Part shown: one piece after another, positions 3,200 through 26,385 of the stretch | Layout: each line of letters begins with the position of its first letter | How positions within the stretch are numbered: position 1 is the stretch's first letter | Assembly (NCBI GenBank): GCA_001899175.1 | Contig: MKVH01000025.1 | Coordinates: 124,001 to 188,000, forward strand | Direction: 5' to 3' | Source: Candidatus Kapaibacterium thiocyanatum | Lineage (GTDB): Bacteria; Bacteroidota; Ignavibacteria; Kapaibacteriales; Kapaibacteriaceae | Length of the DNA: 64,000 nucleotides | The notes under the pieces: generated by a model | The model's database searches: none | Told to the model about the DNA's origin: nothing | The model's input: only the letters and a program-made list of their open reading frames with translations | Translations under genes and position numbers: made by a program

Positions 3200-4102
3200 G
3201 TGAGTCTATTCAACAAGCTGGTAGTCAGCGCACTTCCACTTGTACCCAAAGGCATCGTCAAAACAGTGGCCCGGCGTTATATCGCCGGGCCTGTTTTGTC
3301 TGATGCCGTTGCCTGTACACGTGATCTCATGGCCCGCGGGGCCTGCTCCACCATCGACGTTCTCGGTGAGTTCGTCCAGAATCGCGAGCGTGCCGTCCAT
3401 GAAACGGCAATGGCATCGAGTGTCATCGACGCCATCCACGAGCACAAGCTCGCCTCCTACCTGAGCGTCAAACCGACGTCTCTCGGCCTCGATATCGATC
3501 ACGACTTCGCCTATGCGAATATCACCGGTCTCGTGTCGAAGGCGAAGACACTCGGCCTCTTCGTCCGCATGGACATGGAGAATACGCCCTATACCGATAT
3601 CACCCTCGACTTCTATCGCCGTCTGCGGCGAGACGGATACGATAACGTGGGCGTCGTGATCCAGGCCTACCTGCGCAGATCCGAGCAGGACATCCGTTCA
3701 CTGCTGGACTATGCGCCGTCGGTACGGCTCTGCAAGGGCATCTACGTCGAAGCCGAAGAGCATGCCTTCAAGGATGCCGACGAGATCAGGGCCAATTACC
3801 GCAAGCTGCTGCGACTGCTGATCGACGCCAAGGCCCGTCCCCATATCGCCACGCACGACGAAGCCCTGATCGTCGATGCCGAACGGGTGATCGCCGAGCG
3901 CAAGCTCGACCGCTCGTCCTACGAATTCCAGATGCTGCTCGGTGTGCGCGAAGACCGCCGTGATACGCTGTTGCGGAACGGCCATGCCGTACGTATCTAC
4001 GTTCCGTTCGGTGAGGACTGGTACGGATACTCGACGCGCCGGCTGAAGGAGAATCCTGCAGTGGCCGGTTACGTAGCGAAGGCCATCCTTACAGGCAGAT
4101 GA
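3200..4102 (+). CDS. Proline dehydrogenase (monofunctional)
   Basis: FAD-dependent oxidation of L-proline to pyrroline-5-carboxylate, the first step of proline breakdown. The 300-residue length fits the stand-alone enzyme rather than bifunctional PutA. Family segments in order: SVKPTSLG, DMEN, VIQAYLRRS, RLCKGIYVE, IATHDE, EFQMLLGVRED and the C-terminal VPFGEDWYGYSTRRLKENP, whose YxxRRxxENP supplies the proline-binding arginines. The start is GTG at 3200 with a strong AGGAGG site at 3188-3193, seven bases upstream. Only 16 bases separate it from the protease gene, so read-through is possible. No P5C dehydrogenase gene is adjacent. Confidence 0.92.
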   Translation: MSLFNKLVVSALPLVPKGIVKTVARRYIAGPVLSDAVACTRDLMARGACSTIDVLGEFVQNRERAVHETAMASSVIDAIHEHKLASYLSVKPTSLGLDIDHDFAYANITGLVSKAKTLGLFVRMDMENTPYTDITLDFYRRLRRDGYDNVGVVIQAYLRRSEQDIRSLLDYAPSVRLCKGIYVEAEEHAFKDADEIRANYRKLLRLLIDAKARPHIATHDEALIVDAERVIAERKLDRSSYEFQMLLGVREDRRDTLLRNGHAVRIYVPFGEDWYGYSTRRLKENPAVAGYVAKAILTGR

Positions 4103-5061: not shown

Positions 5062-7542
5062 TCAACTGAAGACGGTAACCTTGTTGGTGGACTTCTGGCT
5101 CATCGCCAGGACGTCGTAGGCATTGTTGAGGAGTACGTCCCACGTATCGCGCGGAGTGGATTCCGCCACACCGATGCTGACCGTCACGCTGAAGCGCTTG
5201 CCGTCCATATCGATGATGGAGCTGGCGATCTCCTTGCGCAGCGTTTCCGTCCACATGTGCGCTTGTTGCGCACGCGTACCTACGAGACCGATGGCGATAA
5301 GGGAATTGTCGATCGTTCCGATGATGTCGTAGTCGCGCAACTGGTTCTGGATGCGTGAGAGGACGTGGACGAGGATACGCCCCGGACCGTGCTCGGCAGC
5401 CGAATCGAAGGCCCTGCTGCTGTCGATGCGGATGAGGCATACTGTAAGAGGCGTCTGGAAGTCGATGGCCCGCGAGAATTCCTCGCGCAGGCGCATTTCG
5501 AAGCCCTTCATGTTCAGGATGCCCGTTGCCGGATCGAGCATGGCGCCGGCCTGCAGCAATTCCGTGGCACGCAGATGTTCGACGAACGAACCGGCATGGT
5601 CGCCGATCGTCTCGAGAATCGAGATATCCTGCTGCGTCAACGTCGACGCATGGTTCTCCACGAAGAGCGCGCCGAAGCTGTGGGACAGCGAGCGCAGCGG
5701 TACGGCAACGAACTGGGCTCCGTCGATGTTCGGCTCGCCGCCGACGATGCGGACGACTCCCGGTGCGGCCGACGTCACGACGGTATTGCCCGACGTGAGG
5801 CAGTGGCCGATCGACGAGCGTTCGAGATCGACGACGGCACCACGGATGTCCTTGTACTCGTCGGAAACGGAGCGGACGTCGGTGATGGTCCATGCACCCT
5901 GATCCGCATCGAAGAGACAGACGCCGATGGTGCTCACGTCCATGTGCTGAACCGATACTTCGAGCAGGGCACGCGTGATGCGCTTGAGCGACAGTTCGTG
6001 ATCACGGAGCGAATTACGGAACTGCGTGATGGCATCGAGCGAACGTGCGGCCTGGAGCAGATCGAACTTGCCGGTATAGGAGTGGACGAGTCCACTTATG
6101 AGCTTGGTGAACTGACCGAAGAACCCGACCGTGATGGCATCGTAGGCATCTTCTTCGGTGGAGTCGGCACAGAGGACGCCGACGACCTTGCCGCCGAAGT
6201 AGACGGGAACGCCGATGAAGGATACGGTACCTGCGGACTGTGCGTAGTAGGGGAGCAGGTCGAGTTCGGCGCTCGGGCGAATGGCCGTGAGGATCTCGGG
6301 TCTGCCGTGGAGTGCGATCTGGCTGACGGCATCCGTGCCCATGGGCAGCTTGCGCTGCTCGATGAAGCGTGTGCCCGCATCCGTGATCTTCGATTCGACG
6401 ACGAGCTGCTGCTTCTCGACGTTGACCCAGAAGAACGCTGCCGTACGTGCGCTGGCCATCGAGCGGATGACCTGGAGCACACGGTTCAGGAGATAGTCGA
6501 ATTCCTTGCGCGGCTCGTCCTGGCCGAGGATTTCCTGGTCGTCCATGAAATCTTCGATGGTGATGCCCGAAATGTCACGCTTCTTCGACATGTCCTCGTC
6601 GTCATCGTTCTGCAGTGGTTGAGCAGCGGGAGCCTCCGCGACCATCCTGGCCGCAGGTTCGGCGACCGGTTCCGCGACCGGCGGAGGGATGGCTTCGACG
6701 GTCGGCCCGGCCACCGGTTCGGCGGGTTCCTCGACGGTCTTCCGCGGTTCGGGATCGGCAGCGGGTGGAGCTGCGACGGGCGAGTTCTTCGGTTCACGTA
6801 CCGCAGGTGCCTCCGTTGCCGGAGGTTCCGGTGCGGTGCGCGGTTTCTTGCGGATGATGATGTCCTCGTTCAGCTGGACTTCACCCTTCACGCCGAGATC
6901 GTCGAGCGACGACTGTTCGGTGTCGGCCGCGGCTTCCTTGCGGAGAGCTTCCATGCGGCGTGCGGCGCGTTGTGCCACCAGTTCGCCGTCTTCCGGGATG
7001 TTGCGCTTGCCCTTGCTCTTCTTGACGCCGATGACACGCACGCCGGATTCGCCGTCGGAGAATTCCTGGTCGATTGCGGGATTGGGAGCGGCCATGGTGG
7101 CCGGCCTCGTACGGGTGACGGCGGGTTCGGGCCTCATCGGTGGCGGTGCGGCGTGGCGTTCGATCATTTCCGGGAACAGTGCGCCCTGGTCCTTGTCGAC
7201 GAAGGTTTCATCCGAACCTTCATCGGCGCCGAACGTTTCGACGTAGCTCTTCGAATCGAAGATCTGCCGGCGTGAGCGGTCGTCATCCTTCGTCTCCGAT
7301 TCGATCTCCGGTGGCGTCGTCGGTCTCGGAGCCTTGCGGCCCTGCATGGACAGATCGGCGATGCGGGGAGATATCATCATGAAGAGGGCTACGCCACCGA
7401 GTATGGCGATGCATACGCCGATAAGGCGCACCGCCATCTCATCGAGGAACAGTGCGATGAAGAGCCCGAGTGCGATCACGACGAAGGCGATCGAATCACT
7501 CGGGACGAAAATCTTGCGTAGGTCTAGACGTGGTTTCGGCAT
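5062..7542 (-). CDS. Membrane GAF-GAF protein with degenerate GGDEF domain
   Basis: 826 residues. Two transmembrane helices lie at about residues 17-60, then a Pro/Ala/Glu-rich low-complexity linker (about 70-330), two GAF sensor domains (about 345-490 and 515-655) and a C-terminal GGDEF-fold domain (about 665-826). The entry motif DPATGILNMKGFEMRL and the late VTVSIGVAE strand are typical of diguanylate cyclases. The signature loop reads GTIDNS (742-747) where an active enzyme has GGDEF/GGEEF, so cyclic-di-GMP synthesis is unlikely; it may be a sensor or binding scaffold. It is last in an operon with NUDIX and two secreted proteins, five bases after the preceding gene. Confidence 0.82.
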   Translation of the reverse strand: MPKPRLDLRKIFVPSDSIAFVVIALGLFIALFLDEMAVRLIGVCIAILGGVALFMMISPRIADLSMQGRKAPRPTTPPEIESETKDDDRSRRQIFDSKSYVETFGADEGSDETFVDKDQGALFPEMIERHAAPPPMRPEPAVTRTRPATMAAPNPAIDQEFSDGESGVRVIGVKKSKGKRNIPEDGELVAQRAARRMEALRKEAAADTEQSSLDDLGVKGEVQLNEDIIIRKKPRTAPEPPATEAPAVREPKNSPVAAPPAADPEPRKTVEEPAEPVAGPTVEAIPPPVAEPVAEPAARMVAEAPAAQPLQNDDDEDMSKKRDISGITIEDFMDDQEILGQDEPRKEFDYLLNRVLQVIRSMASARTAAFFWVNVEKQQLVVESKITDAGTRFIEQRKLPMGTDAVSQIALHGRPEILTAIRPSAELDLLPYYAQSAGTVSFIGVPVYFGGKVVGVLCADSTEEDAYDAITVGFFGQFTKLISGLVHSYTGKFDLLQAARSLDAITQFRNSLRDHELSLKRITRALLEVSVQHMDVSTIGVCLFDADQGAWTITDVRSVSDEYKDIRGAVVDLERSSIGHCLTSGNTVVTSAAPGVVRIVGGEPNIDGAQFVAVPLRSLSHSFGALFVENHASTLTQQDISILETIGDHAGSFVEHLRATELLQAGAMLDPATGILNMKGFEMRLREEFSRAIDFQTPLTVCLIRIDSSRAFDSAAEHGPGRILVHVLSRIQNQLRDYDIIGTIDNSLIAIGLVGTRAQQAHMWTETLRKEIASSIIDMDGKRFSVTVSIGVAESTPRDTWDVLLNNAYDVLAMSQKSTNKVTVFS

Positions 7543-25008: not shown

Positions 25009-25099
25009 CGATGAAGGTTGGTCCCGCGCAGCGCCTGCGGGTTCGAAGGTATCGTCGTTCGTCGGATACCATGTCCTGACTGGTGTCATGTGCGAATTA

Positions 25100-25128
25100 T
25101 ATCGATATTAGCGAGTTTATCGATATTA
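25100..25128 (+). repeat. Two direct repeats TATCGATATTA in the ATPase control region
   Basis: TATCGATATTA occurs at 25100-25110 and again at 25118-25128, starts 18 bp apart (under two helical turns), in a strongly AT-rich patch within a G+C-rich genome. The second copy lies inside the inverted repeat described separately. Likely protein-binding sites. Confidence 0.6.
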
Positions 25129-25151
25129 TCCAGATTCGATAAATTCGCTAA
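25108..25151. promoter_or_regulatory. 16-bp inverted repeat, candidate operator of the AAA ATPase gene
   Basis: TTAGCGAGTTTATCGA (25108-25123) and TCGATAAATTCGCTAA (25136-25151) are inverted copies matching at 15 of 16 positions, 12 bases apart. The right arm ends seven bases before the -7 element at 25158, so a bound dimer would block RNA polymerase. The ATPase has a C-terminal winged-helix-like part and could bind here itself (inference). Confidence 0.65.
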
Positions 25152-25157
25152 ACTCCG

Positions 25158-25165
25158 TATATTTG
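25158..25165 (+). promoter_or_regulatory. -7 element TATATTTG, implying a leaderless ATPase mRNA
   Basis: An exact TAnnTTTG, with TTCG 19 bases upstream as a near -33 box. It ends four bases before the ATG at 25170, so the transcript would begin at or within a base or two of the start codon. Confidence 0.55.
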
Positions 25166-25169
25166 ATGT

Positions 25170-26363
25170 ATGGACCCAGTTCGAAACCCATATGCTCCCG
25201 GAGCCGGAACCCCGCCGCCAGAATTAGCCGGGCGCGATGACTTGCGTGAAACGGTGAGGATCGCACTCGCCCGGATTCGTGAAGGAAAGTCCGCGAAGTC
25301 CGTTCTGATGGTTGGGCTCCGTGGTGTCGGCAAGACCGTACTTCTGGATCGCCTGCGCAGCGATACTGATGAGGCAGGGATGTATACGATGTGGATTGAG
25401 GCCCCTGAGAACCGTTCACTACCGTCGATTCTTGCGCCCCAGTTACGGAGTACGCTGCTACGGTTGTCCCGTATCGAGAAAGCAAAAGATACTGCAGCAC
25501 GCGCGCTACGGGGTCTTGCCGGATTCGCACGGGCGTTGAAGGTCAAATTCAACGATATCGAGATCGGTTTCGATGCCGAACCCGAGCCCGGCCTGGCCGA
25601 TAACGGAGACCTCGAGGGCGATCTCGCGACTCTGCTGCTTCTGGTCGGGGCTGCTGCGCGTGACGCCAGAACGGCGGCCGTCATGTTCATCGACGAGCTT
25701 CAGTACGTCGAGGAAGCGGAACTCGCGGCCCTGATTTCCGCGTTGCACAGGGCGGCTCAACGATTGGTTCCGATCACACTCGTAGGTGCGGGCCTACCGC
25801 AGCTTCCCGGACGAATGGGGAATGCGAAATCCTATGCCGAGCGATTGTTCGATATTCAGGACATAGGACCGTTGACGGATGAAGCGGCACGTACGGCCAT
25901 CGTCGTACCTGCAGAGCATGAAGGGGTGGTGTACACGGAGCCTGCTATCAGGCTCATTCTTCACGAAACGCAAGGATATCCGTACTTCCTTCAGGAATGG
26001 GGCAAGCATTCCTGGGACGTTGCCGACGAATCGCCCATTGACGACTCCGATGTAAGAACCGCTTCCATTGCAGCGATCGCCGCATTGGATGGGTCATTCT
26101 TCCGTATACGGTTCGATAGACTTACGCTGAGCGAGAAGAGATATCTCCGTGCAATGGCAGAACTGGGGCCAGGGCCACATCGATCAGGCGATATCGCTGC
26201 GCAGCTTGGTCGTAAGGTGACGGATTTGGGGCCGATACGAAGTCAGTTGATCACGAAGGGAATGGTGTGGAGCCCGAGTCATGGCGATACGGCATTCACT
26301 GTCCCACTGTTCGATCGGTACATGCAGCGTATCATGCCCGGCGATACATGGCGTACCCGGTGA
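25170..26363 (+). CDS. AAA-type ATPase with winged-helix-like C-terminus
   Basis: 397 residues. The start MDPVRNPYAPGAGTPPPELA is a highly conserved opening of a widespread, mobile ATPase family. Walker A is GLRGVGKT (49-56), Walker B AAVMFIDELQ (about 167-176), then a sensor-like ITLVGAGLPQLPG and a lid region ending in ETQGYPYFLQEWGKHSWD. The C-terminal third (LSEKRYLRAMAELGPGPHRS and IAAQLGRKVTDLGPIRSQLI) reads as a winged helix. The fold resembles Orc1/Cdc6-type and archaeal ATPases; the biological role is not known to me. Codon use is less G+C-biased than the neighbours, and the control region is AT-rich, so recent acquisition is likely. Confidence 0.85.
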   Translation: MDPVRNPYAPGAGTPPPELAGRDDLRETVRIALARIREGKSAKSVLMVGLRGVGKTVLLDRLRSDTDEAGMYTMWIEAPENRSLPSILAPQLRSTLLRLSRIEKAKDTAARALRGLAGFARALKVKFNDIEIGFDAEPEPGLADNGDLEGDLATLLLLVGAAARDARTAAVMFIDELQYVEEAELAALISALHRAAQRLVPITLVGAGLPQLPGRMGNAKSYAERLFDIQDIGPLTDEAARTAIVVPAEHEGVVYTEPAIRLILHETQGYPYFLQEWGKHSWDVADESPIDDSDVRTASIAAIAALDGSFFRIRFDRLTLSEKRYLRAMAELGPGPHRSGDIAAQLGRKVTDLGPIRSQLITKGMVWSPSHGDTAFTVPLFDRYMQRIMPGDTWRTR

Positions 26364-26385
26364 GACCGGGACTGGAATGTCTCCC

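Follow-up and report, generated by a model that had tools for sequence, protein, structure and literature searches.

A mobile single-gene unit with a 9-bp half-site operator and a probably autorepressing AAA+ ATPase in Candidatus Kapaibacterium thiocyanatum and relatives in many phyla

The ATPase gene and its upstream array

The window, that is, the whole 64,000-nt stretch of contig MKVH01000025.1 that was analysed, carries a gene for a AAA+ ATPase with an array of repeated half-sites in front of it (Table 1). As the original prediction had stated, the ORF translation contains a Walker A (GLRGVGKT) and a Walker B (FIDE) motif, and the winged-helix tail is present in the AlphaFold2 model. In 92 aligned proteins, G49, L50, R51, G52, G54, K55 and T56 of Walker A, and D175 and E176 of Walker B were invariant. 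The protein passed the Pfam cut-off of AAA_16 (PF13191; 61.7 bits vs. 32.6, E 1.6e-16, residues 18–204) and likewise that of AAA_22, missed that of the archaeal ATPase family PF01637 (15.4 bits vs. 33.2), and stayed far below that of the NCBIfam model TIGR02928 for Orc1/Cdc6 initiators (20.6 bits vs. 181.3, residues 16–62 only). Its PHROGs match was phrog_6841 (5.8e-11), a family whose function is not known. PADLOC-DB 2.0.0 (2023) gave no clear match to an anti-phage system, the best being mad8 (18.9 bits, E 2.2e-4, residues 44–214); no sequence match was found to solved structures at E up to 0.01, and no paper on this ATPase family was found among the literature matches listed.

Table 1. Positions in the window of the ATPase gene and its control elements
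Feature	Position	Strand	Basis or remark
AAA+ ATPase gene, Orc/STAND-like core and C-terminal winged helix, 397 aa	25170..26363	+	Pfam, AlphaFold2, fold matches
-7 box TATATTTG	25158..25165	+	Four bases before ATG
Left operator arm, half-sites TATATCGAT / ATTAGCGAG / TTTATCGA, 9 bp apart	25095..25123	+	Arm model (89 upstream regions), pairing
Right operator arm, repeating the left one in inverted orientation; outer half-site and -7 box overlap	25136..25164	-	Arm model, pairing
First TATCGATATTA copy, within the left arm	25100..25110	+	Repeat search
Second TATCGATATTA copy, one extra half-site between the arms	25118..25128	+	Arm model, repeat search

The AlphaFold2 model, built with an 80-sequence alignment (mean pLDDT 92.6, pTM 0.89), has an ATPase core followed by helices and, at the C-terminus, a winged helix (helices 339–346 and 354–362, strand 373–376), of which helix 354–362 is the recognition-type one; no further domain was present. 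When the model was compared with known structures, Foldseek placed Orc1/Cdc6 on top (2qby, 4.4e-11), with RuvB, SSO1545 and PABY2304 close after, while VIA-align placed PABY2304 (PDB 2qen; Z 24.3, rmsd 4.3, 323 aligned) and SSO1545 (PDB 2fna; Z 23.3, rmsd 4.0, 320 aligned) in the lead, followed by Orc proteins, plant and animal STAND ATPases and TnsC. The two leading proteins, which we take to be members of PF01637, nevertheless share only 15–16% sequence identity with the ATPase. Orc1/Cdc6 proteins (PDB 1w5t, 2qby, 2v1u), of which DNA-bound structures are among the top matches, resemble it in the AAA+ core and winged helix and, by inference, in a site array adjoining the gene, but the ATPase falls below the TIGR02928 cut-off, its bacterial copies are scattered and its array overlaps the promoter. 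The STAND regulator MalT, with one structure among the VIA-align matches, likewise combines a related ATPase core with a DNA-binding domain. The ATPase domain of IniR is compared to SSO1545 in PMC5760070; IniR differs in being an 818-aa protein with a MalT-like domain, a LuxR-type end and another operon as its target, whereas the present ATPase has 397 aa and shows no additional domain in its model. We group the window ATPase with the solitary SSO1545-like mobile ATPases; its self-control region is unusually explicit.

The predicted drop in G+C was clear at third codon positions (0.595 vs. 0.744–0.808 in six nearby genes), while for the gene as a whole it was only slight (0.578 vs. 0.598 for the window). 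The dN/dS values, computable for three of six close pairs, two of which share one locus, were 0.133, 0.082 and 0.058; these low values indicated that the gene is kept rather than decaying and, as judged from the three pairs, under purifying selection. Together with the invariant catalytic motifs, they speak against the earlier suggestion of a remnant. Across the ATPase stop codon (26356–26370) lies a perfect 6-bp hairpin, CCCGGT GAG ACCGGG, which is terminator-like and has no T run.

Upstream of the gene, the two direct repeats of the original prediction were recovered as exact copies of TATCGATATTA 18 bp apart; at one mismatch or fewer, three occurrences were found in the window vs. 0.43 expected, a number reached in none of 100 shuffles. 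The inverted repeat near the -7 box (25108–25123/25136–25151; 15/16 paired) was confirmed as well, and it extends to 29-nt arms with 23/29 paired; its score was reached by 0/40 dinucleotide shuffles of the 110-nt upstream stretch. Six bases separate the 16-nt arm from the -7 box, whose form, TAnnTTTG, is presumably of the Bacteroidota type. The operator unit is a 9-bp half-site, present about six times per operator, and the 16-bp inverted repeat is a part of this larger operator rather than the unit. In the own genome, the pattern TTAGCGARTTTATCGA occurred exactly at the two window arms only; one other place came within 2 mismatches, and the reversed control pattern had no match. Similarly, in the genome of one relative (L014) the left arm occurred exactly once, with five other places at 2 or 3 mismatches and none for the control. 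The site is therefore rare in these two genomes, each searched with one pattern, and no regulon is apparent.

The operator in relatives and co-variation of its half-sites

Upstream regions of relatives were lined up by eye and with an iterative arm model (89 regions). They have a common layout of three half-sites per arm, 9 bp apart, with outer TATAnC and inner TTAnC and the second arm inverted, and the outer half-site of the right arm and the -10 element overlap. Among the 89 loci, the gap between the arms was 5 bp in 49, 6–8 bp in 24 and 14 bp (5 + 9) in 3 including the window, while it took other values in 13, where the register is possibly wrong. When only gaps of 5, 6, 7 and 14 were permitted, gap 5 was found in 68 of 96 loci and gap 14 in 3. 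Since the window gap is 14 bp and not the usual 5, the second TATCGATATTA copy is explained as carrying an extra half-site.

The operator was scored as detected when both arms reached at least 3 in an arm model that ignored the variable positions. On this basis it was detected in 76/81 first-set loci, which are the model's own training set, and in 26/31 held-out loci with at least 55% identity (27/1620 shuffles), so that the comparison of homologs' upstream regions for the inverted repeat came out mostly in favour of the original prediction. It was not detected in five first-set loci (L035, L045, L048, L057 and L071) and five of the 31 held-out close homologs, and the model fitted just 2/32 held-out loci below 55% identity. 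A model-free inverted-repeat test, in which at most 2/40 shuffles reached the observed score in 53/81 loci, revealed a strong inverted repeat in L045 (21/25 paired, 0/40 shuffles) with a gap outside the model's permitted set. By eye, L107–L126 and other loci below 55% identity carry AT-rich repeats of a different sort before the gene, with TATA-type units at a spacing of ~9–10 bp.

The distance from the end of the best -10 hexamer to the start codon was exactly 6 nt in 35/81 loci and 5–9 nt in 58/81, and a Shine-Dalgarno-like 4-mer was found in 6/81 ATPase loci vs. 67/402 neighbour ORFs, whose mechanically picked starts make them a poor control. Given a -10 element so near the start codon and few Shine-Dalgarno-like 4-mers, the ATPase mRNA is probably leaderless.

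Between the TTA cores of the half-sites, the letters vary among loci, and their co-variation was quantified in 96 loci, obtained from 150 upstream regions (107 with both arms) after near copies and distant proteins were removed. The excess identity between the arms was 0.111 in register vs. 0.008 out of register, and that between unit 1 and unit 2 was 0.099 vs. 0.005 at non-equivalent positions. The corresponding z values were 8.4 for arm–arm, 6.7 for cross-arm and 6.5 for same-arm comparisons, each with 0/5000 permutations, and the signal was already visible in 70 loci. In 23 held-out loci the arm–arm co-variation replicated (z 3.8, 0/5000), the cross-arm signal of units 1 and 2 was weaker (65/5000), and the same-arm signal was not significant in these loci alone (604/5000); the permutations leave some relatedness in, and for certain held-out proteins the identity to a first-set protein reaches ~91%. 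Base composition alone is disfavoured, because it would lift the non-equivalent positions also, and these stay flat. These data are most simply read as a single protein recognising all half-sites, its specificity drifting from one copy to the next. The ATPase is the only protein observed accompanying the operator and would, as we infer from the sequences, bind it; the co-varying half-sites suggest that the protein switches its own gene.

A residue-to-base recognition code was also considered. In the first 72 loci, residue 354 gave z 14.3 with operator position 20, followed by residue 18, which lies far from the helix (6.5 and 6.4), and helix residues 359 and 351 (6.3 each). Counted by locus, G354 went with A/T in 40/42 and A354 with G/C in 16/20, with ten ties excluded. 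In the held-out loci, a small set chiefly of one residue type, the G354 rule fitted 11/11 and the A354 rule 1/7, with four ties, and for position 20 residue 354 ranked 117 of 211 columns, residue 359 ranked 122 and residue 351 ranked 12 (p 0.06) over the 23 loci. In the pooled loci, 354, 351 and 359 were the top three columns for this position, and a helix-wide Mantel test was null (239/1000). Phylogenetically independent pairs on well-supported branches numbered only 5, which does not suffice for significance; of these, an average of 2.7 changed the same way, 0 the opposite way and 2.3 showed no difference. The code is kept as a lead and is not claimed, as residue 354 fails in held-out loci and the Mantel test is negative.

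Distribution and mobility of the unit

The own genome contains one ATPase copy, as do 9/9 further gene-bearing genomes, while some genomes carry two. A scan of one genome per species returned at least 582 relatives, of which 80 with 65–74% identity over nearly their full length were kept; judged by their records, they span Verrucomicrobiota, Pseudomonadota, Acidobacteriota, Planctomycetota, Gemmatimonadota, Bacteroidota, Chloroflexota and others. Presence across genome samples was patchy. With the gene-bearing centre genome of each sample included, the gene was found in 10/149 near relatives at E up to 1e-20 (two at just 28% identity), in 29/395 genomes of the own phylum at 1e-40, and in 23/392, 10/398, 14/317 and 19/308 genomes of the phylum samples around four other genomes at 1e-100. 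In the one genus mate examined (G001), neither the gene nor the 1.4 kb upstream of it nor the downstream neighbour had a match, so that this comparison yielded no empty site for the window. Matches to the ATPase were found in 109/72,556 plasmid records and 1/50,697 phage records, and, when an alignment served as the query, in 40 viral contigs, with many distant matches among these; a distant relative is also carried by a 5.9-kb phage clone (L104). The low plasmid count and the lack of a recurrent partner speak against the plasmid-maintenance role that had been proposed. On an 89-protein tree, phylum labels needed 27 changes (minimum 11, shuffle mean 44.6) and well-supported branches forced few changes per phylum; since the labels cluster more strongly than shuffled ones do, both transfer and shared descent have played a part.

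The boundaries of the transferred segment were seen in two unlike viral contigs, L133 and L134, which have 1397 bp in common at 91.6%. The shared unit runs from 92 nt upstream of the start to ~116 nt past the stop, and their 11-kb windows have just one further matching stretch, of 106 bp; L135 and L136 are near-identical to L134. No inverted pair was found at the unit ends among the repeats listed for L133 and L134. Operator and gene are hence a mobile, self-contained 1.4-kb unit, with its boundaries shown in this one clear case. Four Verrucomicrobia loci (L004, L007, L008 and L010) also have the unit in common; homology to L004 extends from 178 nt upstream to ~12 nt past the stop, and the other three share somewhat more. 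The fossil 3′ end (~30 codons) of a DNA methyltransferase-like gene is seen ~50–155 nt before the start in these four loci, and in L015 the ATPase is preceded by a relative of that gene, a 979-aa ORF that contains a DNA methylase domain and ends in the tail seen in the fossil.

On a plasmid of Vibrio sp. HDW18 (L099), 129-nt repeats (3764–3892 and 5256–5384), which we take to be attC (VCR) sites, enclose the operator region and the gene in an integron-like array. Flanking repeats of attC type, as in an integron cassette, were found for this locus only, and its operator fits the arm model poorly. The spread over many phyla, the bounded unit and the integron-like cassette bear out the original prediction of a transferable element.

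The gene was solitary, as predicted: with one copy in the own genome, its relatives have no recurrent neighbour, no cluster being found in more than 6/81 loci, and among 148 mechanically called neighbours 111 Pfam families were matched at 1e-6, none in more than 5. A PADLOC scan of these 148, run with no control set, gave scattered matches, restriction-modification genes included. In four Acidobacteriota loci (L057, L061, L076 and L080), the unit lies between a pheS-like ORF upstream and a pheT-like ORF 9–112 nt downstream, and so splits the phenylalanyl-tRNA synthetase genes, which usually form one operon; in L004, which belongs to another phylum, the end of a pheT-like ORF lies 219 nt upstream. 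In L058 and L077, a downstream ATPase resembles the AAA_14/DUF4143 kind, another family of solitary mobile ATPases.

Proposed autorepression and possible role

The unit is a mobile, self-contained and probably autorepressed gene. As a whole, the data are best explained, with rather better than even confidence on our part, by a self-contained mobile unit made of an operator, a probably leaderless promoter and an autorepressing AAA+ ATPase. The winged helices of the ATPase would occupy the inverted array of 9-bp half-sites overlapping the promoter, and an ATP-dependent oligomer would cover the promoter and so repress its own gene. A change in nucleotide state, or a ligand, may then release the promoter, with a fast rise of the ATPase. 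Since the regulator moves along with its operator and promoter, and the mRNA probably does without a ribosome-binding site, the unit would be functional across hosts from many phyla. As in an autoregulated gene, a conserved operator with co-varying half-sites lies at the gene's own promoter; its presence before most close homologs, the co-variation and the unique exact site in the own genome make the layout fit the autoregulation originally predicted. Counting against this explanation, no benefit is stated for a gene that regulates itself and has no other known target.

A host regulator could instead bind the operator, with the ATPase as ordinary cargo under its control. This is unlikely, although the residue-to-base code failed in held-out loci and binding by the ATPase is argued from sequence comparison. 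The operator accompanies the gene across many phyla, viral contigs and an integron-like cassette; its letters differ among loci and agree within a locus, which a fixed host factor would not track; and the exact site is unique to the window in its own genome. We regard as quite improbable that the array consists of origin-like iterons and that the ATPase is an Orc1/Cdc6-like initiator replicating or amplifying the unit, with autorepression a by-product. The Orc1/Cdc6 fold with its winged helix and the inverted iteron-like array directly before the gene would suit such a role, but the promoter overlaps the array, the TIGR02928 score is far below the cut-off, the own genome and the nine others have one copy each, though some genomes carry two, and none of the 60 plasmid records listed of the 109 is smaller than 58 kb.

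A hairpin function of the inverted repeat, whether in RNA or in single-stranded DNA (as an attenuator or recombination site), seems very improbable. The arms co-vary as pairs would, and the held-out loci are strong for the arm–arm signal only; neighbouring direct half-sites, however, co-vary also over the 96 loci (z 6.5), as pairing does not require, and if the -10 assignment is correct the array lies upstream of the transcript start. The autoregulated layout and the matches in 109 plasmid records would also suit a toxin-antitoxin or plasmid-maintenance remnant whose partner was lost, to which we give hardly any credence in view of the solitary neighbourhoods, the catalytic residues invariant in 92 proteins and dN/dS of 0.06–0.13 in three pairs.

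With the autorepressed mobile unit as the preferred reading, its viral neighbours bear on a possible role. Twenty chosen neighbours in nine viral contigs were scanned with no control, one or two per contig in six of them. A CI-like repressor precedes the unit at a distance of one or two ORFs in L133 and L134, and the ATPase gene of L137 lies one ORF behind a Sie-like gene, a relative of superinfection-exclusion proteins. Among the scanned neighbours of L094, L138, L139, L141, L142 and L168, no CI-like or Sie-like gene was directly upstream; in L168, however, a CI-like repressor is found ~2 kb downstream. Within a few kb of the ATPase, L134, L142 and L015 carry DNA methyltransferase genes. Prophages keep lysogen-protecting genes of the rex or superinfection-exclusion type behind cI, and the placement in L133 and L134 is alike, whereas the ATPase is an unrelated protein with its own operator and promoter. 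From these few cases, we tentatively suggest that the benefit of the ATPase might lie in conflict with phages or other mobile DNA. The fuller picture of a phylum-crossing one-gene unit, in which an Orc/STAND-type ATPase with an evolvable 9-bp address code and a widely working leaderless promoter guards against phages or mobile DNA, is more doubtful and is offered as speculation.

If true, the guard would be a minimal one-gene system missing from the 2023 PADLOC catalogue, and an initiator-like protein would have turned into a portable immunity switch. It is unusual for a family ~70% identical between phyla and widely transferred that no characterised member was found. With dozens of copies that each spell the operator in their own way, the family is a naturally replicated experiment on protein–DNA specificity and promoter portability, and the role of solitary mobile ATPases of the SSO1545 kind becomes testable in a bacterial form.
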